DNA of 50,713 bases from Cytophagales bacterium (GTDB lineage Bacteria; Bacteroidota; Bacteroidia; Cytophagales; Cyclobacteriaceae). Shown one piece after another: positions 12,891 through 49,769 of this stretch (the first letter of the stretch is position 1; the number at the start of each line of letters is the position of its first letter). The stretch spans positions 1 through 50,713 of the forward strand of contig JAKSDO010000029.1 of NCBI GenBank assembly GCA_022360055.1. Reading direction: 5' to 3'. Position numbers and translations under genes: made by a program. The notes beneath the pieces were generated by a model, which searched no databases, was not told where the DNA came from, and saw nothing but the letters and a program-made list of their open reading frames with translations.

Positions 12891-15251
12891 TCAATTTGCA
12901 ACGCGCTTATTCACGGCTTCAAACGAAACGTTGAGCTCTCTCCCCTGCTCATCCACCAGGTTCAACACATGATTTCCGACTGACGGATAAATGCCCATTT
13001 GGTGGTTTCTCGTGGTTTCTCCGAGGAATTCACGATCCAGGTACCAGAATACCTTCGTTGCCGTATTTCTGTGCGCAGCTTCAAATACAACTCTGCCGGG
13101 CTTTCCATCGATTTCGACCGGAACATATACCCTCGTGAATTTCCTGGGATAGATCATTTCGATGAATTCTCCTTCGGGAGTACAACCCGGCAGGAACTCC
13201 GGCGGTTCGGCATAATCCGTATTAAACTGCTTGTAATACCGGGCTTGGGCCGGCGGCAATATAAACCAGGGCATTTCAACCATTTTTTCAACACGGTAAC
13301 ATTTCGAATTGACCTGATACTTCTTCGATTGATCGAGGTGCACAAGTTTGTGGTGCCTGCATTTGGGCGTTTGTTTCGCAGACGTGCTCACAGGCAGGAC
13401 CTCGGTCTCCGTACAATATGCTCCGGCCGTATTTCCGCTCAGCTTGCAAATCCGCAGCATCCCAACGTCGGCAACCGGCAACGGAAAATGGCCGTTGCCG
13501 TCCAATACCTCGAAAATGCGAAACATTAACGGTGCCGCAGCCAGGATGCCGGTGAGGTCGGGCCTCCCCTCCCCGTCCGCATTGCCCAGCCAGACACCTA
13601 CCACATGTTTTGAATTAAGTCCGATCGCCCAGGCGTCTTTATGTCCATAGCTCGTGCCCGTTTTCCAGGCAATGGCCTGACTGTTCCCGAATTGCTGCCA
13701 GTTCGACTCGGCATCAGGCCTTCTGAGCTCCTGCATCGCTTTTAGCATATGCCAGATGGCTGAAGCACTGACCGGGCTGTCCGAAGATCTTTCCTCATCA
13801 CGCACCTTCCTGTCGCTTCTGTAAGAAAGCGGTCGAAAGTCGTGCAGGTCATACCGTTTCGCGCCCTTGCTCCGGTGGTAGGTTTGAAGTGTCCTTGCCG
13901 TACTTGCGTACAACCCGGCCATCTCCCACAAAGTTACTTCCGCCCCGCCCAAGATGACGGACAATCCGTAATGCCCGGCCGGCTTGTCCAGGCTGGCAAT
14001 TCCCATTTTTTTCAGATCGTAGTGAAACTGCTCATAGCCGTAATCCCGAAGCAAGCTGACAAACGGGACATTGAGCGAGCTGCGAAGCGCAAGGTTTGCC
14101 GGCACGGCGCCCTTAAACTTCTTATCAAAATTCTGAGGGGCAAACCCTTGGTAATAAACAGGTATATCCTCGAGCAACTGCCATGGCGTAATGATGCTTT
14201 TGTCAATGCTGAGCGCATAGAGCAGCGGTTTCAGCAAGCTTCCGGGACTGCGGCGCCTGTTGATTATATCGACCTGCTGGCCGTGGTCGGCCGACTTCAA
14301 CGAGCCGGCATTTCCGACATAAACTTCAACTTCACCCGTCTTTATATTTGCGACTATTGCGGCCGCGTTGTGAATTTGTTTGAAGCTAAAAAACTTATGA
14401 TAATCGTCGACAATCCCATTTACAGTATTTTGAAGATTGTAATCAACAGTAGATCTCACTCTTGTTCCCCCGTGCCCGTCCCCGATGGATCTGTCCAGCA
14501 GGTGTTGGGCGATCATCGGAAGGGGTTTGGGCTTCCCGGGCAACGGTTCGGCAATTGAGAGTCGATAAGTGGTCGAGTCGATGACCCCGTTTTTGAGAAG
14601 GCCGGAGAGGATACGATTTCTTTTGGATAAGAGCGCTCTGTCGTTGGTTCCCGGAAATACAAGCCCCGGCGCGTTCGGCAAAACCGCCAGGTTGGCGGAT
14701 TCGGCCCAGGAAAGTTCGTACATTGACCGCCCGTAATATCTCCAGGCCGCGGCAGAAATACCTACAACATTTCCGCCAAAAGGCGCATTATCGGCATAAA
14801 GCCTCAAAATCTCCCGTTTGGAGTATTTGAGCTCAATGCGCAAAGCGAGCAGCAATTCAAGAAATTTCCGGGGAACAGTTCGCCGCCTGTTTCCCAGGGC
14901 CATTCTCGCCACCTGCATCGTAATGGTGCTGCCCCCGCTTACTACTTTCCCGGCGCTCAGATTCTGTCCGATGGCTCTGAAAATCGACACCGGGTTGAAG
15001 CCGGGATGCCGGAAGAAATATTTATCTTCGAATTCAAGCAGGCAGGCCGTGTAGTTGTCCGGCAGCGAATCCGACGGAGGAAACCGCCACTGCCCGTCCC
15101 TTGCAATTCGCGCCCCCAGGAGATGCCCTCCCCTGCTTTCAAGGGTGGTGGCATACGGATTGTCGAACAGGGGGTCCGGCAATGGGATGAGCAACCCGGC
15201 CAGGATGATTATAAAAGATCCAACGGTAATTCCTTTCAGCTTTTTTTTCAC
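12891..15251 (-). CDS. pbpC: Penicillin-binding protein 1C
   Basis: This 786-residue bifunctional peptidoglycan synthase has one N-terminal membrane anchor (about 9-24). A glycosyltransferase domain (about 40-220) carries the catalytic EDKYFFRH (Glu75) and GGSTITMQVAR. The transpeptidase domain shows SLLK (Ser338, Lys341), SLN (392-394) and KTGTS (530-534). A C-terminal PBP1C-type domain covers about 690-786. The enzyme polymerises glycan strands and may cross-link them in the periplasm. It lies 218 bases downstream of the alpha-2-macroglobulin gene on the same strand, the classic pbpC-yfhM pair, in which the two are thought to act together in envelope repair and defence. Confidence 0.95.
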   Translation of the reverse strand: MKKKLKGITVGSFIIILAGLLIPLPDPLFDNPYATTLESRGGHLLGARIARDGQWRFPPSDSLPDNYTACLLEFEDKYFFRHPGFNPVSIFRAIGQNLSAGKVVSGGSTITMQVARMALGNRRRTVPRKFLELLLALRIELKYSKREILRLYADNAPFGGNVVGISAAAWRYYGRSMYELSWAESANLAVLPNAPGLVFPGTNDRALLSKRNRILSGLLKNGVIDSTTYRLSIAEPLPGKPKPLPMIAQHLLDRSIGDGHGGTRVRSTVDYNLQNTVNGIVDDYHKFFSFKQIHNAAAIVANIKTGEVEVYVGNAGSLKSADHGQQVDIINRRRSPGSLLKPLLYALSIDKSIITPWQLLEDIPVYYQGFAPQNFDKKFKGAVPANLALRSSLNVPFVSLLRDYGYEQFHYDLKKMGIASLDKPAGHYGLSVILGGAEVTLWEMAGLYASTARTLQTYHRSKGAKRYDLHDFRPLSYRSDRKVRDEERSSDSPVSASAIWHMLKAMQELRRPDAESNWQQFGNSQAIAWKTGTSYGHKDAWAIGLNSKHVVGVWLGNADGEGRPDLTGILAAAPLMFRIFEVLDGNGHFPLPVADVGMLRICKLSGNTAGAYCTETEVLPVSTSAKQTPKCRHHKLVHLDQSKKYQVNSKCYRVEKMVEMPWFILPPAQARYYKQFNTDYAEPPEFLPGCTPEGEFIEMIYPRKFTRVYVPVEIDGKPGRVVFEAAHRNTATKVFWYLDREFLGETTRNHQMGIYPSVGNHVLNLVDEQGRELNVSFEAVNKRVAN

Positions 15252-15469
15252 CCGTTTATACTTTTTTAAATTGCCAGACCCACTGAGAAATACAATCGTG
15301 CTCGTGTGTGTCCCGAATTTGCTCCGGTCCTGCCGGTTTCATCGACCGCAAATTTTATGTGCCGACAATCCGGTCGGGCAGTCCTTTGGCCTTGTCTTGA
15401 CTTATTGCATGAAACAATTAATTTTAATTCATTAATAATCAATTAGATATAACTTATAATAAATGCGGG

Positions 15470-18400
15470 CTATTTCACCACTTTTACCCATTTCCCTTTG
15501 GTATTGCTCGCGATGCTGTTGTCATACATTGCTTCAACCGAAACAGCGGGCATGTAGTATTCGCCCCGGTAACTCGCGTTCAGGAACACCCTAAATGTCG
15601 CTTTGGTATTTTTGCTCAGATCAAAGTAGGTGAGCACCCGGTCGTCGCGGATATCCAGATATTCGGGTTTGTAACCTTCCTGGTATTGGTCGGTATCGTC
15701 GAGGCGATTGTTCAGGATCTCCCAGCCCGAAGGGAATATTTGTGTTATGGCCAGTTCTTCATAATCGCCCCGCAATCCCGGATTTGTGATGGTCACTTCG
15801 GCGATAAAATCCGTTCCCTGCTTCAGCTCGTCAATATGGATTCGACTCCCCTGCATATCTTTGTATGCCACTTCCATTTTGATGTTGGCTTCGCTGACCT
15901 CTTCCGTGCCTTCCAGTGGCACTCCTGTTCTTATCAGCCTGATAAACAATGGATTGTCGCCATTATTTTCAACCCGGATCTCACTTTTGTCGTCCGGCTC
16001 GATCAAGGTAACCTGGTTGAGGTACCGGTCACCGTCGACCCGGAACGCATTGCCGGCTATATTTACACCGACGTTCACACCATCGCCCGGAGGAACGTTT
16101 TTGGCGAACTCTGCAATACCGATGAGACAATACGCCGTGGTCTGTGTACTCATCCAGTGATTTGTGTTGCCCATTTTATCGGCAATCTTTTTGATCATTT
16201 CGAAAGCGTCGGTCGGTCTGTTTAGCCTTGTAAGCGTCTCCAGTATCATGGCCTGATCGCGTTGGGTCGATCCGTAGGTCCCGCCAAGCTCGCGGTATTC
16301 CTTAACGTCTGTTGTGAGTCCTTCTATAATTCCAAGGGCCGCGTCTTCGTAGCCCGCAATGGCATATGCCGAGGCAAGCATCCATTTGGAAACCGGAGAA
16401 ATGTCGGCCCGGCCTTTAAGCCTGTTCATGGCTCCGAGCGATGGAGATCCGGAAATAGCCAGGGTATAAAGCCGGTAAGCCTGTGTATGGTTATCCCTGT
16501 ATAATATGGCGTTCCAGTTGTTGGCCTGCTCCTGCTGGTAGGCCACCCATTTCGACATGATATCCTCCGGCACATGGTATCCCTGTTTTTTTGCCTCCAC
16601 CAGGAAATGCCCGGCGTAATTTGTCCCCCAGAGGTTGGGCTGGCTGTTTCCGGGCCAGTACGAAAAGCCGCCGTCAGCCAACTGGAACGACCTGAGCCGT
16701 TCAATGGCGGCATTTATATTCCGCTGGATCTCTCCGCTGCGTTTTTCATCCACATCCACCAATTCGTCAAGATATAACTGCGCAAATACCGAAGAGGTCG
16801 TCTGCTCAATACATCCGTGAGGATATCGAATCAGATACTTCATACGCTGCTCAAGGTTTAGCGGTGGAAGGCTTGAGATTTCGATCATCCCTTCGTTTGT
16901 TCCGATGAGTCCGAGCGGGTTATACTTCAGATCCCAGGTGTTGCCGCCGGCAAGCACTTTTTCTTCAACCTGGCTCATTTCCGGGTTGCTTGCCCGCACC
17001 TGCAACTCCACATCGTAATTTGCCTCGAAGCTTCCCGATATCGCTTTCATACGCACTTTACCAAGGCCCAGCGCAGGTGTGGCTTTCAGATCAAAATAAG
17101 CCATCCGGTCGCCCGGCTCTGAGAAAGTTATTGTTTTCGAAGAAGCGCCCGCTATTTCGAGCCTGCCGGAGGTCTCGACGCTCAGTTTCACATCCCTGAT
17201 ATGCTCGTCCATGGCAAATACGTTTACCGGAAGCGCTATTTGCTCCGACGGCCCGGCAACTCTCGGCAAGGTAGCCAGGATCATCAGCGGTTGTTTGACA
17301 GGAACGGTTTTTTCACTCGATCCGTAAGCGCCGTCATATCCCGCAACGACCATCGCCCTTACGCTCCCGATATATTGGGGCAGTTGGAACTTATGCGCTT
17401 TTCGCTCGCCTGCCTTGACATGGAAAGGTCCTTTGAACAATACAACCGGTTTAAACCTGTTGGCTTTATCCGCTTCCGGAGCCCCGACCTCATCATCGCC
17501 CCCGACAGCCATCAGCTTCTCAAGTTCACCTCCGTAGGCCCCCATCACATCATCAAAAATGTCCCATGTTTTAATGCCCAAGGCTTCGCGTGCATAAAAT
17601 GATTTCCACGGTTCGGGGGTTTGGAATTTCGTGAGATCGAGCAAGCCGTCCTCTACAATGGCAATGGTATAGGTCATTGGCCTCTTATGGGCTTCGCTGA
17701 CCTCCAGTGAAAAGCTCTGCTCGGACCTTAATTCATCCGGCATCGAGATGACCGGCTTTAATTGCGTTTCCGGATCGGCCACCTCGACCGACTGAACCCC
17801 GTACATCCGGATCGGAAGGTCATTGCCGGTTTGCGCATGGGGCTGAAGCATAGTGACATGGGCGTAAACATTCGGCGCCATATCCGGAGTCGCTTCAAAT
17901 TCTACCGTCGTATTTTCCGTTTCGGTATCTACCCAGAACGTCTGCAAAACCCTGCTTCCCGTTTCAAGGCTGATGAGCGCTCTTCCTCCTTCACTGCTCG
18001 GTATATTCAGCCGGACAAACTCGCCGACCTTCAGGCTTTCACGCTCCACGTTGAAATCGAGCATGGTTACCCCGCCCAGCGCTCCTATCTTATCGTTGCC
18101 GGTCCAGCTCATGTAAACAATTTTTCCGGCAGCATGTCCGGAAACCGGATCCTTCACCCGAATCAGGTAGCGCCCCCATCTTTCGACGTTCAGCACATAG
18201 GTTCCCTCGCCATTTTCGGTACGGACCTCAGTCGTCTTAATGTGATCGGAATAGTAGCTGCTCGTGTAGTTGCTTCTGTTTTCCCAGGAGTTATCCCACC
18301 ACCAGCGCCATTGCATTCTGTACAGACCCACCTCGAGCTTCCGGTCTACCGGATTGCCCCTGGAATCAAGGGATACGATCCTCACATGGTGCGATTTATC

Positions 18401-20980
18401 CCTGGGCAGCGCCCCCCAGCGATTTCCCTCCGGCACTTTTATACCGGCAAAACTATTGTACGGTACATATTGGATCGCCGTATTGTCAATGCTAAAATCT
18501 CCGCCTTCCTCGAAAACCTTACCTTTAAAAACAGCCTTCATCATGCCCGGGGCTTCGTCCGTCGTTTGCAGCCTGAACGGTATCCGGGCAATTCCCTGTT
18601 CGTCTAACCTTCCTTCGAAGACGGGTTCGTTCTCCGGCCTGAATTCCTTGGACGGATCGTCAAAAGTGACGTCTTCATAGCCTTTGAAAGAGGTCTTCGT
18701 CGGAACGAGCAGCACCTCATAACTCGCTTTCAGGTTCTTTGCCACCGCTCCGTGCAGCCACCTGACCTTCAGATTTCCATATTGCGTGCCCTGATCTGCG
18801 TACAGCTTGTCTTCGTCAAACTTCAGTTCCACCTTCAGTCTGTTGGGCTTAACCGTTTCAATTTTGACCTGCTTTGTGAATGCGGCTCCGCCAACTTTCA
18901 CTTTTGCGAGCCAGTTTCCGGTGAGCGCATCTTCGGGCGTTTGAAGGTGAAATGTGTACAGGCCTTTTGATGCGCCGGATTGAACGGAGCGGCTGTGCAA
19001 TTGCCCCAGGGGATTGAATAATTCCAGAATTACAGGCTGCGCTTCCGGCAACCGGTTTTGGGCATCCTCCAGGAGGAACGACAGGTGAAGCGTATCGGAT
19101 GGTCGCCACACGCCCCTTTCCCCATAAATAAATCCTTTGATTCCCTTTTGAACGGTATGTCCCGAAACATTGAAATTGCTCAAGGAAAGCGATGATTCTT
19201 CATCCAGTTTCAGGTATCCGAACTGACTATTCTTTTTGGCGATCAGGGCATAAGGCTTGCGTTTTACTTCAATTTCCAGCTTGCCATCGCCATCCGTAAT
19301 ACCCGAGGTGATGAGTTGCTGTTGATAATCGTAAACATCGATTTGCGCGCCCTGCATGGGCAGGGCCGAGATCAGGTTTGTTGTAAACACATGCAGGTTC
19401 CCCTTTTCGGCCTTTTTCGCCAGAATACCGATATCCGAGGCGAAGATTATTTTCCGGGCATTGCCCCTTCTTCGAGCATAATAGGATTCATGACAGGGAT
19501 TGTCGCGTTGCTCCCAATCGTAATAATAGTAATAATCATCGTCGTATCCGCTCCAATCCAGCTCCTCTTCCCGGTCCTGTTCCGGGAACGTTTCCTCCAT
19601 CCCATCCTGCTCTGCACTGCAAAAATACAGGCTGTGCGATTTCCTGAAATCCAGCCTGACCTGGTAAAATGCGCCGGGTTCCACATCCACATATTCGGCG
19701 AGGTCAATACTAAACCTGTTCCATTCGCTCAGGTTGGTTGCTCCCATCATCGCCAATGGAATGGTTTTCCTGACAATCGGCCGGCCCACGCGCTGCAACT
19801 GGTAGCTTCCCCCGGGATCATTTACCTGCAAGTATTGCAATACGTTATTCTCGAAAATTCTAATAATTGTTAAATCGACCGCGCTGAGGCTTACGGCTTC
19901 AAAAGGAACGATCAAACCTTCGGAACTTGGCATGATCACCCCCTTGTTGGCCGTGATCTTAACTTCGGGTTTGTTCTGAGAAAATTGCAAATCCGTTTCA
20001 AAATCATCTTTCAGGGCATATCCGGCGGTGTTCTTGATCGATCTGTCGACGGTCAACGTCACCTTTCCTGCAAGTTTGCCCGTGGCGTACACTTTTAACT
20101 CGTTAAGGTTTGTCACCACCCTAGGAGCCGTGCCCATCGACATGGTGACCAGGCCCCTCAAATTCTGGCGGGGATCGATCGGATCGGAAAATTTCACCGA
20201 TATATACTTATCTCCGGTTTGGATAATGTTTACCGATGTTACTTTAAATTCATCGAGCGCAGGTATAGCATATTCCTTTTTACCGGACATGTCCGCGCCG
20301 ATTGCATCTCCGTTCCAGGAGACCGTCACGTTATGTTCATTTTCGCCCCTGGCGATATTTTCGATCACAAATCCATACAGATTCCGGCCCAAACCATATT
20401 CATAAGTTATTTTCATGGCCTTGCCGGCCTGCTCCGCTCTGAGCAATTGACCGGCCTGTTCGCGGGTGATCTGGTCGGCCGTCTGAATTTTCCCGGTCAG
20501 CTTTACACGCTTCAGGTCATTTGCGTCATAGACCGAAATCCCGTCGAATTTGATGTGGAACGATTGCGGGATACATTCGAATGTAAACTTGAACCTGCTG
20601 CGGTCTGTCGGCACTTCCACCAGTTTGTCGATAAGAAAAACGGTTTTGTATCGCTGTCCGTTTGCAAGCTCGGTCGCAGGTTTGAAAACAATTGTCCGGT
20701 GGTCTTCCCATACGGTTTTGCCCTTCAGGGCCGGTTCGAACGAAAATAGCTTTTCCCCGATTTCCTTTCCCGGCTCGGCAGTTTGTACCGGCTTGGTCAG
20801 CTTGACGGTTATTTCCGACTTCTTTGATACGTATCCGGCCGTATGCACCGAGACATATTCTGCAAACAGCGTTTTCGGACTGCTAAACGTATCTTTTTCT
20901 TTTTTTTCACCTTCCCTGCACGAAAAAGTCAACAGAAAAGCGAGCAAGTAAATACCAAAAAATGAGTGGTTGAATTTCAT
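15470..20980 (-). CDS. Bacterial alpha-2-macroglobulin (YfhM type)
   Basis: This very large exported lipoprotein (1836 residues, signal ending at Cys21) traps proteases in the periplasm. The thioester motif is intact: CIEQ at 1390-1393 within GCIEQTTSS, where Cys and Gln form the reactive bond. The N-terminal third has MG-type beta domains and the region after the thioester has the alpha/alpha toroid (YWPGNSQPNLWGTNYAGHFL). A low-complexity acidic Asp/Tyr patch lies near residues 475-490, probably an exposed loop. The family usually has 1500-1900 residues. Its neighbour downstream is pbpC, the expected partner: the trap would protect the wall while PBP1C repairs it. Confidence 0.93.
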   Translation of the reverse strand: MKFNHSFFGIYLLAFLLTFSCREGEKKEKDTFSSPKTLFAEYVSVHTAGYVSKKSEITVKLTKPVQTAEPGKEIGEKLFSFEPALKGKTVWEDHRTIVFKPATELANGQRYKTVFLIDKLVEVPTDRSRFKFTFECIPQSFHIKFDGISVYDANDLKRVKLTGKIQTADQITREQAGQLLRAEQAGKAMKITYEYGLGRNLYGFVIENIARGENEHNVTVSWNGDAIGADMSGKKEYAIPALDEFKVTSVNIIQTGDKYISVKFSDPIDPRQNLRGLVTMSMGTAPRVVTNLNELKVYATGKLAGKVTLTVDRSIKNTAGYALKDDFETDLQFSQNKPEVKITANKGVIMPSSEGLIVPFEAVSLSAVDLTIIRIFENNVLQYLQVNDPGGSYQLQRVGRPIVRKTIPLAMMGATNLSEWNRFSIDLAEYVDVEPGAFYQVRLDFRKSHSLYFCSAEQDGMEETFPEQDREEELDWSGYDDDYYYYYDWEQRDNPCHESYYARRRGNARKIIFASDIGILAKKAEKGNLHVFTTNLISALPMQGAQIDVYDYQQQLITSGITDGDGKLEIEVKRKPYALIAKKNSQFGYLKLDEESSLSLSNFNVSGHTVQKGIKGFIYGERGVWRPSDTLHLSFLLEDAQNRLPEAQPVILELFNPLGQLHSRSVQSGASKGLYTFHLQTPEDALTGNWLAKVKVGGAAFTKQVKIETVKPNRLKVELKFDEDKLYADQGTQYGNLKVRWLHGAVAKNLKASYEVLLVPTKTSFKGYEDVTFDDPSKEFRPENEPVFEGRLDEQGIARIPFRLQTTDEAPGMMKAVFKGKVFEEGGDFSIDNTAIQYVPYNSFAGIKVPEGNRWGALPRDKSHHVRIVSLDSRGNPVDRKLEVGLYRMQWRWWWDNSWENRSNYTSSYYSDHIKTTEVRTENGEGTYVLNVERWGRYLIRVKDPVSGHAAGKIVYMSWTGNDKIGALGGVTMLDFNVERESLKVGEFVRLNIPSSEGGRALISLETGSRVLQTFWVDTETENTTVEFEATPDMAPNVYAHVTMLQPHAQTGNDLPIRMYGVQSVEVADPETQLKPVISMPDELRSEQSFSLEVSEAHKRPMTYTIAIVEDGLLDLTKFQTPEPWKSFYAREALGIKTWDIFDDVMGAYGGELEKLMAVGGDDEVGAPEADKANRFKPVVLFKGPFHVKAGERKAHKFQLPQYIGSVRAMVVAGYDGAYGSSEKTVPVKQPLMILATLPRVAGPSEQIALPVNVFAMDEHIRDVKLSVETSGRLEIAGASSKTITFSEPGDRMAYFDLKATPALGLGKVRMKAISGSFEANYDVELQVRASNPEMSQVEEKVLAGGNTWDLKYNPLGLIGTNEGMIEISSLPPLNLEQRMKYLIRYPHGCIEQTTSSVFAQLYLDELVDVDEKRSGEIQRNINAAIERLRSFQLADGGFSYWPGNSQPNLWGTNYAGHFLVEAKKQGYHVPEDIMSKWVAYQQEQANNWNAILYRDNHTQAYRLYTLAISGSPSLGAMNRLKGRADISPVSKWMLASAYAIAGYEDAALGIIEGLTTDVKEYRELGGTYGSTQRDQAMILETLTRLNRPTDAFEMIKKIADKMGNTNHWMSTQTTAYCLIGIAEFAKNVPPGDGVNVGVNIAGNAFRVDGDRYLNQVTLIEPDDKSEIRVENNGDNPLFIRLIRTGVPLEGTEEVSEANIKMEVAYKDMQGSRIHIDELKQGTDFIAEVTITNPGLRGDYEELAITQIFPSGWEILNNRLDDTDQYQEGYKPEYLDIRDDRVLTYFDLSKNTKATFRVFLNASYRGEYYMPAVSVEAMYDNSIASNTKGKWVKVVK

Positions 20981-40075: not shown

Positions 40076-40879
40076 ATGAGAAACTGCATTATGCTACTTT
40101 GCTCATTGCTTTTGATCGCAATTATGAGCACACCGGCGCTTTCCCAGGGTTTACTCAAAAAGCTTAAAAAGCAAACGGAGCAAAAAATCCTTAAGAAGAC
40201 GGACGAAGTTCTTGACGATGCCGTATTTGGAGAGGATAATGACAACCCGAATAATCCCGGGAATACCTCCAATCCCGGCAGTACCCCGGGGTCAAACACG
40301 GCCAATACAACCGGTGGCGGCTTGGTGGTCGAACCCCCGGATGTCCTGAAAAATATCGATGATGCGGAACAGGCGTTTAATGTTCAAAATTACGGAACCG
40401 CAAGGTTTTCCGTAAGGCAGGCCATGCTCGGGATAGAAATGGAAATAGGTCATAACATCCTGGAAGAGCTCCCCAAAACCGTCGACGGCCTCAATTATGT
40501 CGAAAACAAGGACAAGGTAACTTCCATGAGCTATGGGTTTGTCGGTCTGACCCTCGAAAGAGTCTATCAGGGAGGAAACAAAGAATTAAGACTGAGCGTC
40601 GGCAATAACTCCGCCTTGCTAAGCGCAGCAAATATGATGTTGGCGAGTGGCGCTTATTCCACCTCCAGCACCGACCAAAATTATAAACAGACCACGTTCA
40701 AAGGGTACCGGTCCGTGTTGGAGTACGACAATTCGTCGGGCTATACCTTGAGCGTGCCGTTTGGTCAATCCTCCATTTTTGTGTTAAACGGAAGAAACTA
40801 TTCTTCCGAAGGAGAAATGATGGCCGCCGCAGAAAATTTTGATATCGAACCCATTAAAAAAGAATTAGGAGAAAAATGA
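40076..40879 (+). CDS. Exported protein of unknown function, paralogue 1
   Basis: This 267-residue protein has a signal peptide (1-24, ending LSQG), a short basic helix and a low-complexity linker of Asn, Gly, Pro, Ser and Thr (about 60-82), then a folded domain (about 95-267). That domain is alignable with the next gene: both have an A/F..QA...I......IL..LP....G.N(Y/F).E..D.V, followed by strands and a final helix after a (Y/Q)(S/G)YSSE or GYSESE segment. It ends four bases into the next gene (ATGA). No enzyme motif is visible. A periplasmic role is likely. Confidence 0.75.
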   Translation: MRNCIMLLCSLLLIAIMSTPALSQGLLKKLKKQTEQKILKKTDEVLDDAVFGEDNDNPNNPGNTSNPGSTPGSNTANTTGGGLVVEPPDVLKNIDDAEQAFNVQNYGTARFSVRQAMLGIEMEIGHNILEELPKTVDGLNYVENKDKVTSMSYGFVGLTLERVYQGGNKELRLSVGNNSALLSAANMMLASGAYSTSSTDQNYKQTTFKGYRSVLEYDNSSGYTLSVPFGQSSIFVLNGRNYSSEGEMMAAAENFDIEPIKKELGEK

Positions 40880-41481
40880 GAACTCGAATCATCACAACCG
40901 CTTTAAGTATTATCCTGGTTGCCGCTTTTCAATCAAGGGCTCAGGATTTAAGTTCCAAGCTTGGCGAAGCCAGATCGTCCTACAACTCGGGAAGCCTCGA
41001 CGATGCGCGGTTTGCCCTGGAACAGGCGCTGCAGCAAATAGACCAGGCTGTCGGAAGAGAAATTCTCAAAATTCTTCCAACCGATCTGATGGGCATGAAT
41101 TTCATTGAAGGGGAAGACAATGTCGTCGGCACCAACCTGGGGTTCGCGGGATTATTTGTCGACCGGAACTATGGCCAGGGAGAGAAAAACGCCGGTATTG
41201 ATATTATCGGGGATTCCCCGCTCATGGCCGGTCTGAACGCAATGCTGGCTCTGCCTGCCATTATGACCCAGGGCGACCAGGATCAAAAGCGGATCAAGGT
41301 AGACGGCTACAAATCCCTGCTTCAAAAAGAATCCGGCTCGGAAGGAATCACCTCCTATTCGGTGCAGATTCCGGCAAACCATACACTTATAACGCTTAAT
41401 GTTCAGGGTTATAGCGAGAGCGAAGTCATTTCAATGGCCAATATGATCCCGGTTTCGCAGATCGTAAAGCTGGCCCGGTAG
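40876..41481 (+). CDS. Exported protein of unknown function, paralogue 2
   Basis: This 201-residue protein has a signal peptide (1-22, ending SRAQ) and a single folded domain related to that of the preceding gene, lacking its low-complexity linker. The four-base ATGA overlap indicates coupled translation, and the two may form a heteromeric complex. The shared domain starts with a helix (DDARFALEQALQQID) and continues with strands around FIEGEDNVVGTNLGF. I do not recognise a family. It is followed by the VanX-like gene after about 95 bases. Confidence 0.75.
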   Translation: MRTRIITTALSIILVAAFQSRAQDLSSKLGEARSSYNSGSLDDARFALEQALQQIDQAVGREILKILPTDLMGMNFIEGEDNVVGTNLGFAGLFVDRNYGQGEKNAGIDIIGDSPLMAGLNAMLALPAIMTQGDQDQKRIKVDGYKSLLQKESGSEGITSYSVQIPANHTLITLNVQGYSESEVISMANMIPVSQIVKLAR

Positions 41482-41575
41482 ATTGCTCAAAGATGATTGA
41501 AATTACGGTTCAGGCAAAATGTCCGGACTTTTTTATATGTCATCGATGAGCCCGGCAATATCCTCAAGGCGTTGC

Positions 41576-42274
41576 ATGCCCATGTCCGCAATTTCATGGG
41601 CATCCGTCGCTTATCTGGCTTTTGTCCTCCAATTTTCATGTGATGGCAAAGCCGGACTGCCTTCCGGGTTTGTTTATCTCGATGATGTTGCACCCGGCGT
41701 TAAGCTGGAAATCAGATATTTTTCACCGGAAAATTTCGTTGGGGATACCATCGACGGATACAAATCCGGCCGATGCATTATCACCCGGGAAGCCGCCTTT
41801 GCCTTGCGAGAGATCCAACAGGAACTTAATAAAAAGGGCCTGGGGCTAAAAGTATACGATGCTTACAGACCCCAGCAAGCCGTTGATCATTTTGTGCGAT
41901 GGGCTCATGACCTTCCGGATACTCGGATGAAATCCGAATATTACCCGCAAGTGGATAAGGACTCTTTGTTTGACCAGGGGTACATCAGCGAAAAATCAGG
42001 ACATTCGAGAGGGAGTACCGTGGACCTCACGATCGTATACCACGACGGCCCCGATGCCGGGAAAGAACTGGATATGGGCACGTCCTGGGATTTTTTCAGC
42101 CCCTTGTCCTGGCCATCAAGCAATGAAATTACGGAAGTTCAAAAAGCAAACCGGATGTTGCTCCGGAAGGTTATGATCGCACATGGATTCAAACCCTTAA
42201 ACGAAGAATGGTGGCACTTCACATTGCGGAATGAACCCTTCCCGGACACCTATTTTAATTTCCCGGTGCAATAA
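41576..42274 (+). CDS. VanX-like D-alanyl-D-alanine dipeptidase
   Basis: This zinc dipeptidase of family M15D hydrolyses D-Ala-D-Ala. With the chosen start it has 232 residues, a hydrophobic signal ending at Cys22 (LQFSC, probably a lipoprotein) and the metal ligands His143 and Asp150 (SGHSRGSTVD) and His214, with the general base Glu211 (EEWWHF). YDAYRPQQA also fits. An in-frame ATG at 41519 would add 19 residues before the signal. Exported members are thought to recycle D-Ala dipeptides from cell walls rather than confer vancomycin resistance. No vanH, vanA or two-component genes are adjacent, so resistance is not implied. Confidence 0.88.
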   Translation: MPMSAISWASVAYLAFVLQFSCDGKAGLPSGFVYLDDVAPGVKLEIRYFSPENFVGDTIDGYKSGRCIITREAAFALREIQQELNKKGLGLKVYDAYRPQQAVDHFVRWAHDLPDTRMKSEYYPQVDKDSLFDQGYISEKSGHSRGSTVDLTIVYHDGPDAGKELDMGTSWDFFSPLSWPSSNEITEVQKANRMLLRKVMIAHGFKPLNEEWWHFTLRNEPFPDTYFNFPVQ

Positions 42275-42638: not shown

Positions 42639-43676
42639 ATGGAGTATCACGGGAGATACCAAACTTTCGATCCGAATAAGATCCGGACATATCCGATCAG
42701 CGCCAGGGAAAACAAGGTACAGCTTGAAGATCTGGTAGATCCGATGAACATCGGCGAGTTCCGGTTCGATGTTGCGCCTGAAGTCGATGAAAACCTAAAA
42801 TTACTGGCCGGCCATCTTGTGCGGTCCAGAAAAGATAATTTACCGGTTATACTCTTTTCGGGAGCCCATCTGATCAAAAACGGGTTAGGGCTTCTGCTCG
42901 CAGACCTTGTTGAAAAGGATCTGGTGACGTGCGTTGCCGGAAACATGGCGACCTCCATCCACGACTTTGAGTTGGCCATGATCGGTCAAACCAGCGAATA
43001 TGTGCCTCAGGCGCTTGAAAAAGGTCAATTCGGAATGGCCTACGAGTTTGCCTACATCAATACCGCCATGAATATCGGCAACAGGTATCACCTGGGCCTC
43101 GGTGAATCCCTTGGCAAAATGATTATGGATGAGGAGTTCCGGCAGGAAGTGTTCCGTGTTATCTGGAAGGCAGGATCGCCCGACAGCTTTCTGTATCCCG
43201 ACAAAAGCGTGCTGGCCGCCTGCCACAAGAAAAATATTCCTTTTACGGTGCACGCGGGCATCGGCACGGATGTCACGGATCAGCATCCCTCTTTTGACGG
43301 ATCGGCCAAGGGCGGTTGCTCGGGCAGGGATTTTCTGATCTATACACATGAAATCGAAAAGCTTGCGGCAGGCGGCATGGTCTTCAATATCGGAAGCGCG
43401 GTTACCGGCCCCGAAGTTTTTCTGAAGGCAGCTTCCATGACCGGGAATATTGGCAAAGTCCCCAGGCAAATCATCACTGCGGATTTCGATATTCGACCGT
43501 TTAACCCGGCACATATCACAAACGAGTCTCAAACAGGCTATTACTTCCGGGATCAAAAAAGTATTGTCGTCCGTGTTCCGGAAGCATACGGAGGCAAGGG
43601 GTATTATGTGGAAGGAAATCAGAAGCAGACGTTTCCGCTTTTCTATAAATATGTGACGGAGAAATTAAACGCTTAG
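42639..43676 (+). CDS. Deoxyhypusine-synthase-like conserved protein
   Basis: This 345-residue cytoplasmic protein has the pattern of a bacterial family distantly like deoxyhypusine synthase. SGAHLIKNGLG lies at 74-84, SIHDFELAMIG at 106-116, a histidine-rich segment HAGIGTDVTDQHP at 205-217 and FNIGSAVTGPEV at 249-260. I recall this pattern from uncharacterised proteins that sit beside sugar kinases, but I could not search it. True deoxyhypusine synthase modifies eIF5A, which bacteria lack, so the real reaction must differ, perhaps on a sugar or polyamine substrate with NAD. It is the first gene of the cluster, four bases before the isomerase. Confidence 0.6.
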   Translation: MEYHGRYQTFDPNKIRTYPISARENKVQLEDLVDPMNIGEFRFDVAPEVDENLKLLAGHLVRSRKDNLPVILFSGAHLIKNGLGLLLADLVEKDLVTCVAGNMATSIHDFELAMIGQTSEYVPQALEKGQFGMAYEFAYINTAMNIGNRYHLGLGESLGKMIMDEEFRQEVFRVIWKAGSPDSFLYPDKSVLAACHKKNIPFTVHAGIGTDVTDQHPSFDGSAKGGCSGRDFLIYTHEIEKLAAGGMVFNIGSAVTGPEVFLKAASMTGNIGKVPRQIITADFDIRPFNPAHITNESQTGYYFRDQKSIVVRVPEAYGGKGYYVEGNQKQTFPLFYKYVTEKLNA

Positions 43677-43680
43677 AAGT

Positions 43681-44238
43681 GTGAAGGAAAGGGTACTTAA
43701 GGCCATCGAAGGTCACGACAGGGCAATTCGGTATTTTGCCGCCCACAGTACGGATAAAGTATTGGAAATAGCTCGGCTTATCGCCGAAACGTTTCGTTCC
43801 GGAGGCCGGATTTACCTCTGTGGAAACGGGGGCTCAATGGCGGATTGTCAGCATATTGCGGGTGAGTTTGTGGGTAAATTCCGTAAAGTAAGGCGACCGC
43901 TTCCGGCGGTGGCCTTGTCGACCGACCCCGCTCTGACCACATGCATCGGAAATGACTTTTCTTACGAACATATCTTTTCAAGGCAGGTCGAAGCGCTCGG
44001 CAAACCGGGCGATATACTTTGGGCGTTCTCGACAAGCGGCACTTCCGAAAATGTCATCAAAGCGGCAGACACCGCCAGGATCAAGGGAATGACCGTCATC
44101 GGCTTTACCGGACGGCCGGACAGTCCGCTGGAACGCTTATCCGATATTTGCCTGTGCGCAAATTCCGATCAAACCAATCACAGCCAGGAAGTACACGAGC
44201 TCGCTTATCACATTATTTGTGAACTGATCGACGAATAA
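43681..44238 (+). CDS. Phosphoheptose isomerase-like SIS protein (GmhA type)
   Basis: This 185-residue SIS-fold enzyme resembles D-sedoheptulose 7-phosphate isomerase. It has GNGGSMAD (48-55) and STSG (117-120) for phosphate binding, and the two catalytic residues expected from GmhA, Glu62 (GEFVG) and His172 (QEVHELAYH). It would convert a ketose phosphate to an aldose phosphate. The start is GTG, four bases after the upstream stop, and no in-frame ATG lies nearby. It is directly followed by the kinase-HAD fusion, which places it in a GmhA-HldE-GmhB-like route. Confidence 0.85.
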   Translation: MKERVLKAIEGHDRAIRYFAAHSTDKVLEIARLIAETFRSGGRIYLCGNGGSMADCQHIAGEFVGKFRKVRRPLPAVALSTDPALTTCIGNDFSYEHIFSRQVEALGKPGDILWAFSTSGTSENVIKAADTARIKGMTVIGFTGRPDSPLERLSDICLCANSDQTNHSQEVHELAYHIICELIDE

Positions 44239-44259
44239 TATTAAAAACCCAGCTAATAA

Positions 44260-46167
44260 ATGGATCAACTACGCGTAAAAGAAATTCTGAAAAAAATAAA
44301 GTCATCCAAAATTGCCGTGTACGGTGATTTCTGTGTGGATGCTTACTGGATTATGGATTCCAGGGGATCGGAAGTGTCTATCGAGACAGGACTGCAGGCC
44401 GAATCCGTTGGTTCGCATTATTATTCTCCCGGCGGCGCAGCAAATATTGTCGCCAATCTTTCGGCGTTGCATCCCGCAAAAATCGAAGCCATAGCGGTAG
44501 TTGGCGATGATATTTATGGCAGGGAATTGACCGCCCAGCTCAAGGGACTGCATGCGGACACTTCCTCGCTGGTCATTCAAAAGGAAAATTTCAATACGTA
44601 TACCTACCTGAAAAAGTATCGCGGAGATATTGAAGATCCCAGAAACGACTTTGGGGTGTACAATGTACGGTCCGAAGCGACGGACAAGCAGATCCTTGCC
44701 AATATCCGGGAAGCATTGACGGAATGCGATGTCATGATATTTAATCAGCAGGTGCCGGGGAGCCTCCGCAATCGATTCTTTATAGATGAGGCCAATAAAA
44801 TCTTTAAAGCGTATGATGATAAGATCATAATCGTCGACTCAAGACATTACAATGATCAATTCAAAAATATCTACAGAAAGACCAATGATATCGAAATAGC
44901 GGCCCTGTGCGGGGAGAGTGTAAATCCCAGCGAAAGCATCCCCTACTCGGACATCAAAAAGTACGGCACCCTGGAATTTTCGCGCACCGGAAAACCGGTC
45001 ATCGTCACTTGCGGATCCCGGGGCGTCCTTGTTTTTGACGAAGAAGGAATACATGAAATCCCCGGCATCCAATTGACCTCGAAACTGGATACGGTGGGCG
45101 CCGGCGATACGGGGATCAGCGCTGTGGCGCTGTGCCTGGCCGCAGGATTATCGCCTTCGGAATCAGCAGCGTTCGGGAATTATGCCTCTGCAGTCACCGT
45201 TCAGAAACTTTTTACCACAGGTACGGCCAATGCCGAAGAAATCCTGGAAATCAGCAGGGACCCGAACTTTGTCTACCAGGCCGACCTGGCAGAAAATATT
45301 CGGGGCGCATCTTATCTGCCCGACACGGAAATAGAACTGTGTGATCTCACTGCAATGAATCAACTTGGCGACATCAAACACGCCGTATTTGACCACGACG
45401 GTACGATCAGCACACTCCGACAGGGATGGGAGGAAATCATGGAGCCGGTAATGATCAAAGCCATTCTCGGAAACAAATACAACAGCGTGGATCAGGCCGG
45501 TTACAACGAAGTCGTCAAACAGGTCAAAGAGTATATAAATAAAACCACCGGTATTCAGACCATATTCCAGATGGAAGGCCTGGTAAAAATGGTCGATGAA
45601 TTCGGCTACGTTCCAAAGCATGAAATACTCGACAAGTTCGAATACAAGAGAATATATAATGAGGCGCTGATGGAGATGGTGAATAAGCGGTTGCGCAAAT
45701 TGAAAGCGGGCGAACTGGACGTATTTGATTTTATGCTGAAAGGCGCTTTTAAATTTCTAACGGAATTGAAGAAACGAGGTGTAACCATGTACCTGGCGAG
45801 CGGCACGGATGTGGAAGATGTGATCAATGAGGCTTCCCTGCTCGGCTATGCCGATATGTTTGACGGCGGGATCTATGGAGCTATGCGGGATGTGACCAAA
45901 TTTTCCAAAAAAATGATCATGGAAAAAATCATCCGTGAAAACAAGCTGAAAGGAAATGAATTGGCCGTTTTCGGAGACGGTCCGGTTGAGATCAGAGCCT
46001 GCAGAAGATTCGACGGCATAGCAACCGGCATTACGAGTAATGAAATCCGAAGGTATGGGATGGATGTTGAAAAAAGATCCCGGCTGGTGAAGGCCGGCGC
46101 GCATTTTCTAATCTCGGACTTCTCCCAATATCAAAAGTTGACAAACCTTCTTTTTGAAGAGAAGTAA
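44260..46167 (+). CDS. Fusion of PfkB/HldE-type sugar kinase and HAD phosphatase
   Basis: This 635-residue cytoplasmic protein has two enzyme domains. Residues 1-320 are a PfkB kinase most like the HldE heptose 7-phosphate kinase: YGDFCVDAYWIM near 20, PGGAANIVANLSAL near 57 and the catalytic GAGDT at 280-284 (Asp283). Residues about 375-635 are a HAD hydrolase: motif I DHDGT (378-382, nucleophile Asp378), motif II SGT (514-516), a lysine near 550 and motif IV GDG (572-574). A long helical cap lies between motifs I and II. HldE normally carries a nucleotidyltransferase in this position, so here it is replaced by a phosphatase. Successive phosphorylation and dephosphorylation of a sugar phosphate is the likely job. 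Confidence 0.85.
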   Translation: MDQLRVKEILKKIKSSKIAVYGDFCVDAYWIMDSRGSEVSIETGLQAESVGSHYYSPGGAANIVANLSALHPAKIEAIAVVGDDIYGRELTAQLKGLHADTSSLVIQKENFNTYTYLKKYRGDIEDPRNDFGVYNVRSEATDKQILANIREALTECDVMIFNQQVPGSLRNRFFIDEANKIFKAYDDKIIIVDSRHYNDQFKNIYRKTNDIEIAALCGESVNPSESIPYSDIKKYGTLEFSRTGKPVIVTCGSRGVLVFDEEGIHEIPGIQLTSKLDTVGAGDTGISAVALCLAAGLSPSESAAFGNYASAVTVQKLFTTGTANAEEILEISRDPNFVYQADLAENIRGASYLPDTEIELCDLTAMNQLGDIKHAVFDHDGTISTLRQGWEEIMEPVMIKAILGNKYNSVDQAGYNEVVKQVKEYINKTTGIQTIFQMEGLVKMVDEFGYVPKHEILDKFEYKRIYNEALMEMVNKRLRKLKAGELDVFDFMLKGAFKFLTELKKRGVTMYLASGTDVEDVINEASLLGYADMFDGGIYGAMRDVTKFSKKMIMEKIIRENKLKGNELAVFGDGPVEIRACRRFDGIATGITSNEIRRYGMDVEKRSRLVKAGAHFLISDFSQYQKLTNLLFEEK

Positions 46168-46199
46168 TACATTATTTAAAACGATATAAATGACTTAAA

Positions 46200-48575
46200 A
46201 TGAGGTTTATATACTTTTTATTATTCTCCCTCGCACTGTCTTTTTTGGCCGGTTCCTGCAATCGGAAATCCACCGGAAATCTTCAGCCGGTCGATTATGT
46301 GGATCCGATGATCGGCACCGACTTTTTCGGACATACGTACCCGGGCGCCACACGGCCTTACGCCATGGTTCAGCTCAGCCCGGATAACGGTACGGACGGC
46401 TGGACATTCAGCTCCGGATATGCCTACAAGGAAAATACCATCATGGGATTTAGCCATACTCATCTAAGCGGGGTCGGATATACGGCCTGCGGCGACGTAT
46501 TGATTATGCCGACCGTTTCCGATGAAATAAAAGTGGTCCCAGGGTCAAAAGATAAACCCGAAACAGGTTACCGCTCCGGGTTCTCTCATGAAAATGAAGT
46601 TGCCCGTCCGGGCTATTATTCCGTATGGCTCGATGATTATGGCATCGAAGCGGAGCTGACTGCCACCCGACGCGTCGGTTTTCACAGGTATACCTTTCCA
46701 CAGTCGCATAAGGCGCCGATCATTGTGGACTTGGGACATTCTATCGGAGGTACCGTTGAGGAGGATCTTTCGAAAATCACCATATTAAACGATTCGGTGG
46801 TGACAGGGATCAAAAGCGGCCAGGGTGTAAAGGTATATTTCTACGCTCAATTCAGTAAACCCTTTAAATACTACGGTACGTTTGACGCGGGTTATTATAC
46901 GCCGGAATCCGGAGCAAGCTTATTCCCCTATAAAAACGAAGAGATCGGCCGCAAGATCGGGGCTTTTTTGATCTACAACACATCGGACCGGGAGGAGATC
47001 CTGGTAAAAGTAGGGATTTCCTACGTATCCGTTGAGGGCGCTCAAAAAAATCTTCTGGCAGAGCTCAATCACTGGGATTTTGAGCGGGTGAGATCCGATG
47101 CCAGGGACGTCTGGAACCGTGAGCTTTCCAAATTGCGCGTAAAAGATGCATCCGAGGATAAAAAACAAATTTTCTATACTTCGATCTATCACAGTCTTCT
47201 GGCGCAACAGATTTCACAGGATGCGGACGGCCGGTATTTCGGCATGGACGGAAACATACATACCGTAGATGGCGGAGACTTTTATCCCTCCTTTTCATGT
47301 TGGGATACGTATCGATCGGAACATCCTTTGCTCACAATCATCCAGCCGGATCACGTAAATGACATGATCCGGTCCATCGTTGCCAAGACAAAAGCTTATG
47401 GCTGGCTGCCGGCGCAGCACTTCCGGAATGAGTTTGGCCAGGGCATGGTCGGCGACCACCTGGTCCCCCTGATCGTAGACGCCTATGTGAAAGGCTTCCG
47501 CGATTACGATGTCGAATTCATATATCGGGCCATGAAAAAAAAGGCGCTTCAGCTCCCTCCCGCTCCGTTGCCAAAATCAGACGGGCGGTCCGGGTTGCTC
47601 GATTACATCGCGCTCGGGTATGCCCCCTGCGACAGGGTCACCGAATCCGCGCCGAACACACTGGAGCTGGCATACAACGACTGGTGCATTGCTCAAATGG
47701 CCAGGGCATTGGGGAAAGAAGACGACTACGAACTATTTATGAAAAGGGCGCACAACTATAAAAATGTGTTTGATGAGGAAACTCAATTCTTCCGGCCCAA
47801 AAAAGCTGACGGATCCTGGTTGCCGGAAATCGGGGATCGTGAACAGGAAATAATCACATCGGGCGAACATTCCTATTACAGGTACTTTGATCCCTTGCTG
47901 GTGGGAAGAAGGCCCAACCGGCACTATACCGAATCGAATGCCTGGCAATATTTATGGTCGGTTCAGCACGATCCGGTCGGTTTGATTGCGCTGCTTGGCG
48001 GCAATGAGCAATTCACCGGAAGGCTCAATGATTTTTTTGATATGACACCTACGATAAGCTCCCCAAAGTATGTCGGTGTTGTCGGGACGATCGGGCAGTA
48101 TGTTCATGGAAACCAACCCTCCCATCACGTCGCTTACCTTTACAATTACGCCCGAAGGCCCTGGCTGACCCAGGAAAAAACGCGCCGGATTACGGAGCAG
48201 CTTTACCGCACGGGGGCCGGCGGCATATGCGGGAATGAGGACATGGGCTCGCTTTCTTCCTGGTATGCCCTCAGCGCCATGGGATTCTATCCGGTAACCC
48301 CCGGCCAGACACAATACGCCATCGGATCCCCGGTTTTGGAGGAGGTTTCCATAATGCTTCCGGGCGACAAGAATTTCACCGTCTCTACCGTAAACAATTC
48401 ATCCGCGAACAGGTATATTCAATCCGCCACCTTAAACGGAGAGGAGTTCAATCGCTCGTGGATCGACCATCATGAAATAATGCAGGGGGGAAAACTGACT
48501 TTTGTTATGGGCCCCGAACCAAATAAAAACCGGGCGGTCCGGGCCGGATCGATTCCTTATTCTATGACTAAATAA
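46200..48575 (+). CDS. GH92 family alpha-mannosidase lipoprotein
   Basis: This 791-residue glycosidase begins with a lipoprotein signal (LAGSC, Cys20) and the GH92 opening VDYVDPMIGTDFFGHTYPGA. It has the family segments NTLELAYNDWCIAQMA and GNEDMGSLSSWYALSAMGFYP near the C-terminus, which hold the acidic catalytic residues. GH92 enzymes are calcium-dependent inverting exo-alpha-mannosidases acting on N-glycans and related mannans. Length is typical. It lies 32 bases after the kinase-phosphatase fusion, suggesting that its product sugar feeds that pathway. The exact linkage cut cannot be told from sequence. Confidence 0.92.
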   Translation: MRFIYFLLFSLALSFLAGSCNRKSTGNLQPVDYVDPMIGTDFFGHTYPGATRPYAMVQLSPDNGTDGWTFSSGYAYKENTIMGFSHTHLSGVGYTACGDVLIMPTVSDEIKVVPGSKDKPETGYRSGFSHENEVARPGYYSVWLDDYGIEAELTATRRVGFHRYTFPQSHKAPIIVDLGHSIGGTVEEDLSKITILNDSVVTGIKSGQGVKVYFYAQFSKPFKYYGTFDAGYYTPESGASLFPYKNEEIGRKIGAFLIYNTSDREEILVKVGISYVSVEGAQKNLLAELNHWDFERVRSDARDVWNRELSKLRVKDASEDKKQIFYTSIYHSLLAQQISQDADGRYFGMDGNIHTVDGGDFYPSFSCWDTYRSEHPLLTIIQPDHVNDMIRSIVAKTKAYGWLPAQHFRNEFGQGMVGDHLVPLIVDAYVKGFRDYDVEFIYRAMKKKALQLPPAPLPKSDGRSGLLDYIALGYAPCDRVTESAPNTLELAYNDWCIAQMARALGKEDDYELFMKRAHNYKNVFDEETQFFRPKKADGSWLPEIGDREQEIITSGEHSYYRYFDPLLVGRRPNRHYTESNAWQYLWSVQHDPVGLIALLGGNEQFTGRLNDFFDMTPTISSPKYVGVVGTIGQYVHGNQPSHHVAYLYNYARRPWLTQEKTRRITEQLYRTGAGGICGNEDMGSLSSWYALSAMGFYPVTPGQTQYAIGSPVLEEVSIMLPGDKNFTVSTVNNSSANRYIQSATLNGEEFNRSWIDHHEIMQGGKLTFVMGPEPNKNRAVRAGSIPYSMTK

Positions 48576-48584
48576 CATACCGCT

Positions 48585-49769
48585 ATGAAACTTAAATACA
48601 CACTCCTTATACTTTCGTTCCTTTGTACATGCTTCGTTTCGAAAGCTCAAAAAGGTCCGGAACCGAAATATATTGAAACAAAGGAATTGATCTTTCCGGA
48701 ACAAAGCGAGCATGTGCATGGCAGCAGTCTGGTATTGCTTCCGAACGGCGACCTGCTGGCTGCATGGTTCCAGGGAAGCGGAGAACGAAAGGCCGACGAT
48801 GTACGGATCATGGGAGCGCGATTGAAACAGGGTTCCTGGACCAAACCGTTTTTAATGGCAGACACAAAAGGGTTGCCCGATTGCAATCCGGTGTTGTTTC
48901 TGAACAAGGCAAACAAGCTCTTTCTGGTGTGGATTGCCGTACAGGCCAACAGATGGGAAAATTCGATCCTGAAATTCAGAACCTCGACCGACTACGATTC
49001 CGGCGGCTCCCCGGACTGGGATTGGCAGGACAACATTCTGTTGAAGCCCGATGATGCTTTTGCAGAAGAAGTAGCATCGAAATTCAAAGATCTGCCGGAA
49101 AATCATGCCGGTTGGGCGGAATACGCTCCGCTTTACGATGACATGATCATCGAAGCCAGCAAAGATCAACTGAAACGCAGCATTGGCTGGATGACCAGGA
49201 TAAAGCCATTGATCCTGGAGAGCGGCCGCATAATTCTTCCTCTTTATTCGGATGGGCTCAATATGTCGATCACGGCAATTTCGGACGACGACGGCGAAAG
49301 CTGGAGAGCGGGCTTACCGATGGTCGGGCGCGGACCGATACAACCGGCCCTGGCCCAAAGAGAGAACGGCGACATTATAGCGCTGATGAGGGATAGCGGG
49401 GATCCTCCGGCAAGGGTTCACAGGAGCATCTCCACGGACAGGGGGGAATCCTGGAGCGCTTCTGAAAAAACAGATATCCCCAATACGGCCAGTGTCGAGC
49501 TGCTAAAATTGCAGGACGGCACCTGGGCTTTCCTGGGCAACGATATAACCGATGGCAGGTATCGCTTAAGCCTGTATTTGTCCGATGACGAGGGGGAAAC
49601 CTGGAGTCGAAAGGTCCGGATAGAAGACGTCCCCCGGGGAGCCGGAAGCTTCTCCTATCCCTCCCTGATCGAAGATCAAAAAGGGAACCTGCATATGACC
49701 TATTCCCACCGAACCGGTGCGCACAATAAGTCGATAAAATATGTGGTCGTCAATCCGTCAAAGATTTAA
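48585..49769 (+). CDS. Exported sialidase-like BNR repeat protein
   Basis: This 394-residue protein has a signal peptide (1-22, ending SKA) and a six-bladed propeller of the sialidase BNR_2 type. Asp-box repeats SxDxGxxW occur as SDDDGESW, STDRGESW and SDDEGETW. The region near 75-100 (CNPVLFLNKANKLFLVW) is typical of proteins annotated as exo-alpha-sialidase, though activity has been shown for few of them. It starts 10 bases after the GH92 stop and should be co-expressed. It may remove a terminal acidic or other sugar before the mannosidase acts. A lectin-like role is also possible. Confidence 0.8.
   Translation: MKLKYTLLILSFLCTCFVSKAQKGPEPKYIETKELIFPEQSEHVHGSSLVLLPNGDLLAAWFQGSGERKADDVRIMGARLKQGSWTKPFLMADTKGLPDCNPVLFLNKANKLFLVWIAVQANRWENSILKFRTSTDYDSGGSPDWDWQDNILLKPDDAFAEEVASKFKDLPENHAGWAEYAPLYDDMIIEASKDQLKRSIGWMTRIKPLILESGRIILPLYSDGLNMSITAISDDDGESWRAGLPMVGRGPIQPALAQRENGDIIALMRDSGDPPARVHRSISTDRGESWSASEKTDIPNTASVELLKLQDGTWAFLGNDITDGRYRLSLYLSDDEGETWSRKVRIEDVPRGAGSFSYPSLIEDQKGNLHMTYSHRTGAHNKSIKYVVVNPSKI

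Follow-up and report, generated by a model that had tools for sequence, protein, structure and literature searches.

A putative five-gene operon in a 50,713-nucleotide stretch of DNA from a Cytophagales bacterium (contig JAKSDO010000029.1 of assembly GCA_022360055.1; the whole stretch is called the window here) is best, if tentatively, explained as a widespread but uncharacterised module, probably for heptose phosphates, joined to two glycan-acting enzymes with predicted export. New here is the combination of a probable heptose-phosphate metabolism, an enzyme to which no role is assigned, and attached glycosidase genes. The unassigned enzyme belongs to the GSU2086 family, which occurs in many phyla here and is now tied to heptose metabolism, and this family may have gone unnoticed as a replacement for one of the standard heptose-synthesis enzymes. 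The operon consists of five open reading frames (ORFs) at 42639..49769:

42639..43676, + strand, gene 1: GSU2086-family protein with the fold of deoxyhypusine synthase (DHS) and AgrE, 345 amino acids (NF052581)
43681..44238, + strand, gene 2: GmhA-type SIS sugar-phosphate isomerase, 185 amino acids, GTG start (TIGR00441, PDB)
44260..46167, + strand, gene 3: PfkB (HldA-like) kinase-HAD phosphatase fusion, 635 amino acids (Pfam PfkB, Hydrolase)
46200..48575, + strand, gene 4: GH92 exo-alpha-mannosidase-family protein, 791 amino acids (PF07971, PF17678)
48585..49769, + strand, gene 5: BNR/Asp-box protein of a sialidase-like family, 394 amino acids (PF13088, BNR_2)

The ORFs agree with a sequence-only reading of this DNA, which had described five co-directional genes with gaps of 4, 21, 32 and 9 bases. 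Visual inspection suggests a lipoprotein-like signal at the start of gene 4 and a signal peptide at the start of gene 5, and both products are predicted to be exported. Neither the ORFs nor a Pfam scan revealed a glycosyltransferase or nucleotidyltransferase gene in the operon. Promoter-like sites numbered 9 (12.2 expected) and terminator-like sites 13 (10.7 expected), so that neither scan gave evidence of a signal.

The association of the three cytoplasmic genes extends well beyond this genome. Scanning named genomes with gene 1 gave 92 related loci, of which 80 were kept, and partner genes were counted with custom profiles on the same strand within 3.5 kb. Kinase genes were found at 46 loci, HAD genes at 35 and SIS genes at 26; at least one of the three was present at 58 of the 80 loci, and at 31 of the 44 with full flanks. 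The homologues are not rarely together, and the three cytoplasmic genes form a co-conserved module, as the sequence-only reading had proposed, although the SIS is not an invariant part of the set and is absent from several loci of the window's clade. Partner matches of at least 40 bits are concentrated near the relatives of gene 1, with 98 on the same strand and one on the opposite strand within 1 kb (155 kb of flank) versus 4, all HAD, at 3.5-10 kb (625 kb), and a purely chance cluster was rejected on this basis.

Fusions link the same activities. Kinase and HAD are fused in the window clade (the window and six loci), SIS and HAD at six Firmicutes loci (checked with Pfam in L095), and the DHS-like protein is followed by SIS in one frame at three Chloroflexota loci, with the reverse order in a single frame at L122. 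That four activities are fused in pairs strongly indicates a single pathway. Within the window's genus, gene 1 is present in five of seven genomes (and in none of 91 other relatives searched), and these five genomes, but neither of the other two, also have the full kinase-HAD; one of the two (G300) is 74% complete.

Two other arrangements were seen among the module loci. In a Clostridia locus (L084:124-5067), two HAD matches and two tandem DHS-like genes surround a single kinase gene, an arrangement suggestive of module duplication. At L080:11037-12752, a purH-like gene (AICARFT/IMPCHase) is the first or second gene after the DHS-like gene, and clustering places a purH-like gene in the same position at L070, L075, L077, L082, L090 and L091.

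Gene 1 scores 307 bits against NF052581 (curated cut-off 250), the lowest of the 14 matches over the cut-off in 296 Bacteroidota genomes; NCBIfam names this family without a function. The protein shares the DHS fold, as a fold test found, and scores 12.1 bits against the Pfam DHS family PF01916 (gathering score 27), a profile that has no matches in the window's own genome. The family motif is GSAVxGPEV, compared with GGGV-x-K in DHS, where we take Lys329 to be the catalytic lysine. None of 68 family sequences has a lysine at 255-258, the DHS lysine position having been placed by eye on the shared strand, and deoxyhypusine synthesis was rejected as the role of gene 1 because the catalytic-lysine position has no lysine. 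The gene 1 product is probably NAD-dependent, and we suspect that it is a sugar-phosphate epimerase.

Matches to the GSU2086 family below its cut-off occur in 80 of the 296 Bacteroidota genomes (e.g., L015:730-1791, L016-L030). All 16 that were inspected carry the DHS-type GGGVP motif, and the single one scanned is a full-scoring DHS (PF01916, 321 bits), which is odd for bacteria; we know of no bacteria with the usual target protein of that enzyme. The open-licence literature searched contained no paper joining DHS with phosphoheptose isomerase, with heptose, or with lipopolysaccharide (LPS) biosynthesis plus bacteria, none joining the nickel-pincer nucleotide with ornithine cyclodeaminase, and, among the papers listed, none with the phrase "deoxyhypusine synthase-like". 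DHS together with PfkB turned up plant papers only, and GSU2086 was found there only as a Geobacter gene (PMC5585712).

The second protein resembles GmhA closely. It scores 184 bits against TIGR00441, under the equivalog cut-off of 209, but that cut-off is passed in only 4 of 64 genomes and the best GmhA of many HldC genomes scores 185-200 bits. Aligned with PDB 2xbl/2x3y (E 1e-43), it keeps the His, Glu, Gln and His of QHIAGEF and SQEVHE..YH, presumably the metal and active-site residues of GmhA, and the cluster SIS proteins of the window's genus retain these positions. A cluster SIS is present in four of eight clade genomes, three of which have no other GmhA-type protein of comparable score, and all four genomes without it (including L059, where the contig stops inside the HAD part) have a GmhA-type protein elsewhere. 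An ordinary GmhA thus seems able to do the work of the cluster SIS, and this speaks for heptose 7-phosphate as the substrate of the cluster SIS.

In gene 3, the kinase occupies approximately residues 1-330 and the HAD approximately 372-632. The best NCBIfam model for the kinase is rfaE_dom_I (TIGR02198), which scores highest even though its 122-124 bits fall under the equivalog cut-off of 345. A kinase profile ranks HldA (4e84) first in the PDB at 178 bits, with the next chain at 83. Each of the 39 kinases scanned, 36 from the module plus L160, L131 and L064 for comparison, matches the HldA model, and the S-x-E and R-x-D motifs, common to HldA 4e84, are invariant among them. Individual ranking of models covered eight module kinases (the window and seven others) and the three comparison kinases; HldA was the best model for all eight, at 112-162 bits, and the comparison kinases scored 239-344 bits. 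At E 0.001, 30 module HADs gave no NCBIfam match to a GmhB/histidinol-phosphatase model, only to other HAD models, and counts of GmhB-type HADs (TIGR01656) did not discriminate between groups.

Gene 4 is far over the cut-offs of PF17678 and PF07971 and matches PDB 6f8z at E 2e-155. Compared with 2wvx, it keeps the E of YTESNAW and the ED of GNED, which we take to be the GH92 acid/base positions; members of GH92 are alpha-mannosidases. Gene 5 scores 163 bits against PF13088, and its PDB matches are weak, with the best (BNR proteins and sialidases) at E 2e-4 or worse and the sialidases at E 4e-4 or worse. A GH92 gene lies directly 3' of the kinase-HAD gene at all five readable Bacteroidota loci (the window, L049, L050, L056 and L157), and no GH92 gene was found in that place at the Planctomycetota locus L058; the sequences of L051 and L059 stop short of it. 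A BNR gene follows GH92 at two of the three loci readable that far, the window and L157 (where it is 76% identical to gene 5) but not L056. The connection between cytoplasmic and glycosidase genes, for which the sequence-only reading had only spacing to go on, no longer depends on spacing alone because GH92 adjacency is conserved in relatives.

The window genome also has an HldC nucleotidyltransferase, HldD, a second GmhA and another HldA-like kinase (337 bits against TIGR02198) elsewhere. The earlier description of a heptose-type set without a nucleotidyltransferase is thus accurate for the cluster but not for the genome. In a tree that left out the long-branch rows L043, L064 and L100, relatives of gene 1 separate into the window clade and an LPS-type clade, with support of 100/100 and 100/99, and the module types. 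Replacement of HldD was rejected for the window's own genus, where HldD is present.

In the LPS-type clade the situation differs. Outside Bacteroidota, its members adjoin a gmhA-like SIS gene at 8 of 11 loci (L131 also has an HldE-type kinase), and at 10 of 13 Bacteroidota loci the gene run is shared with a GT9 heptosyltransferase-family gene, as identified by representative. HldC is present in 171 of the 296 Bacteroidota genomes (E up to 1e-50) and HldD is over its cut-off in 156. Among those with HldC, HldD was found in 151 of the 158 without an LPS-type GSU2086 protein (the window genome included) versus none of the 13 with one (Fisher 7e-15, uncorrected for kinship). In other phyla, all eight LPS-type genomes tested have an HldC domain over the cut-off and no HldD over the cut-off, as do the Planctomycetota module genomes G397, G408, G409, G426 and G427; G398, slightly under the HldC cut-off, is also without HldD. 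For HldD, the best match in each LPS-type genome tested scored 78-150 bits (cut-off 275). Read most simply, these results suggest that LPS-type GSU2086 proteins take the place of HldD, and the position beside gmhA suggests that they act before nucleotide activation. In Geobacter, hldE (GSU2085), GSU2086 and gmhA (GSU2087) have consecutive tags and similar transposon-sequencing scores of -3.1, -3.2 and -3.7 for growth on electrodes, and GSU2086 is annotated there as a "hypothetical cytoplasmic protein in sugar biosynthesis operon" (PMC5585712). Given this gene order, Geobacter GSU2086 probably belongs to the LPS-type clade.

The exclusion of HldD could instead be a coincidence of lineage, with D,D-heptose used without epimerisation and GSU2086 serving another task beside GmhA and HldE, and we regard this as a serious possibility, if a somewhat improbable one. 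The 13 Bacteroidota cases belong to one clade, and the counts are uncorrected for phylogeny. Seven HldC-positive Bacteroidota without HldD are also without GSU2086, so HldD can be lost without GSU2086, and some organisms may dispense with epimerisation altogether. However, the same pattern in all eight tested genomes of other phyla argues against coincidence, as does family f30, where two genomes have HldD only (G093 and G243) and two GSU2086 only (G120 and G200).

For the module as a whole, we tentatively favour heptose-phosphate interconversion with an epimerase-like step, salvage being slightly favoured over synthesis. In this scenario, the SIS would probably convert sedoheptulose 7-phosphate to and from a heptose 7-phosphate of manno configuration, the kinase of HldA type would add a phosphate, and the fused HAD phosphatase would remove one, at a point that, like the direction of the route, we place only conditionally. 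The GSU2086-family protein would most likely invert a carbinol centre of the heptose phosphate through transient NAD-dependent oxidation, with C6 the best guess because LPS-type relatives appear to take HldD's place. Given the linkage to GH92 and BNR in the window clade, the job of the module there would most likely be uptake or remodelling of glycan-derived sugars of manno type, among them heptose, and the operon may convert the released sugar.

Several settings point to sugar uptake and use. Besides GH92 and BNR, they include a rhamnosidase-like gene (L053), an AGE-type epimerase gene 11 bases upstream (L058), an upstream AraC-type regulator (L059), and parts of ATP-binding cassette importers, which we predict to carry sugars, at Firmicutes and Chloroflexota module loci (L061, L072, L085, L095 and L104). 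Clusters of related neighbours, identified by scanning one representative each, add ROK proteins (7 loci), GntR/LacI-type regulators (4) and GFO/IDH/MocA oxidoreductases (4). Set against the biosynthesis-like pair of kinase and phosphatase, these settings lead us to commit to interconversion and to favour salvage slightly.

Other findings weigh against this interpretation, in addition to the single-clade exclusion cases and the seven genomes described above. None of the three partners is present at 22 of the 80 loci, and several clade loci have no SIS. HldD is over the cut-off in seven of eight window-clade genomes (the eighth shows an HldD fragment at a contig end), and because this clade coexists with HldD, the HldD argument comes from relatives across a long branch with 100/100 support. 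The near-invariant family histidines at 214 and 328 are Asp and Gln in the window clade. Positions 39, 114, 121 and 160 set the module kinases apart from the three comparison kinases, so that the module kinases look like a sister group of HldA; together with the changed histidines, this suggests that the substrate may differ. In eight of nine aligned Firmicutes and Planctomycetota cluster SIS proteins, Asp replaces the GmhA glutamate, which L108 retains. Finally, a salvage route has no obvious need for both a kinase and a phosphatase, and the pair resembles the biosynthetic route to heptose 1-phosphate.

That resemblance is the core of a biosynthetic alternative, in which kinase and HAD, like HldA and GmhB, make a bisphosphate and then heptose 1-phosphate for a surface or secreted glycan that GH92 and BNR trim or remodel. 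The order of activities fits known ADP-heptose chemistry, HldC is available elsewhere in the window genome, and LPS-type relatives adjoin gmhA/hldE-like and heptosyltransferase-family genes. We nevertheless consider it rather unlikely, since the genome already has separate GmhA, HldA-like, HldC and HldD genes, the operon has no glycosyltransferase or nucleotidyltransferase, some module loci have importer genes, and none of the 14 module genomes from Firmicutes that were tested has TIGR02199 over its cut-off, 8 of them lacking any match. It is less probable still that the SIS, the kinase and the phosphatase have as their substrate mannose or some other hexose set free by GH92, with the heptose resemblance reflecting only ancestry. 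Mannose and D,D-heptose have the same configuration at C2-C5, and the mannosidase family of gene 4, the AGE-type epimerase of L058 and the four divergent kinase positions would all fit a hexose. Against it stand the conserved GmhA positions of the cluster SIS, its status as sole comparable GmhA-type protein in three genomes, and the invariant HldA-like kinase motifs. That GH92 and BNR are passengers, with an adjacency inherited in one lineage and no functional link, is very unlikely, for although the GH92 linkage was seen only in the Bacteroidota members of the clade and is missing from L058, it survives at 62-73% identity, and G298 retains SIS, kinase-HAD, GH92 and BNR together despite having gene 1 on a different contig.

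Upstream of this split module in G298 is a gene for a 1423-amino-acid BcrAD/BadFG ATPase with DUF2229, of the CoA-enzyme activase type (L157:3433-7701). In the window, a VanX-like D-Ala-D-Ala dipeptidase gene (41519-42274; 222 bits, cut-off 320) lies 364 bases upstream of the operon; no counterpart was found upstream in congener loci L049-L052. Positions 40076-41481 encode an adjacent pair of proteins with signal-like starts and, by eye, resembling stretches, with no Pfam family over the cut-off. A penicillin-binding protein gene (BiPBP_C domain) adjoins a large bacterial alpha-2-macroglobulin gene at 12891-20980, a pairing that is known elsewhere.

The boldest form of our proposal is that the GSU2086 family is a second, unrelated heptose-phosphate epimerase, NAD-dependent and with the DHS fold, that would invert C6 before nucleotide activation and replace HldD in lineages of Bacteroidota, Nitrospirota, Acidobacteriota and delta-type proteobacteria; within the clade of the window, it would be part of a glycosidase-linked operon salvaging L,D- or D,D-heptose from the LPS of other bacteria into sedoheptulose 7-phosphate. 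As a whole, this is doubtful. Should GSU2086 do the job of HldD, one step in making the LPS core would have a hidden second solution, built on a fold familiar from spermidine and ornithine chemistry. A salvage role would make the window operon a pathway of heptose breakdown; among the papers listed by a full-text search of open-licence literature, no title describes such a pathway.

The GSU2086 family has its fold in common with DHS but differs in its sub-cut-off Pfam score, lysine-less site and sugar-gene context. The ornithine cyclodeaminase domain of AgrE/ArgZ and the LOR/SDH protein 3c2q are amino-acid enzymes, whereas this family sits with sugar-phosphate enzymes. The Geobacter genes GSU2085-GSU2086-GSU2087, like the window, place a family member of unassigned role among heptose genes; unlike the window, they include the HldE nucleotidyltransferase, and HAD, GH92 and BNR are not mentioned in the part of the source available to us (PMC5585712). 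Compared with the ADP-heptose pathway (GmhA, HldA/HldE, GmhB, HldC and HldD), the window cluster likewise has a GmhA-type isomerase, an HldA-like kinase and a HAD phosphatase. It has no nucleotidyltransferase, its HAD has no GmhB model match and is fused to the kinase, and it adds a DHS-fold protein and attached glycosidase genes.

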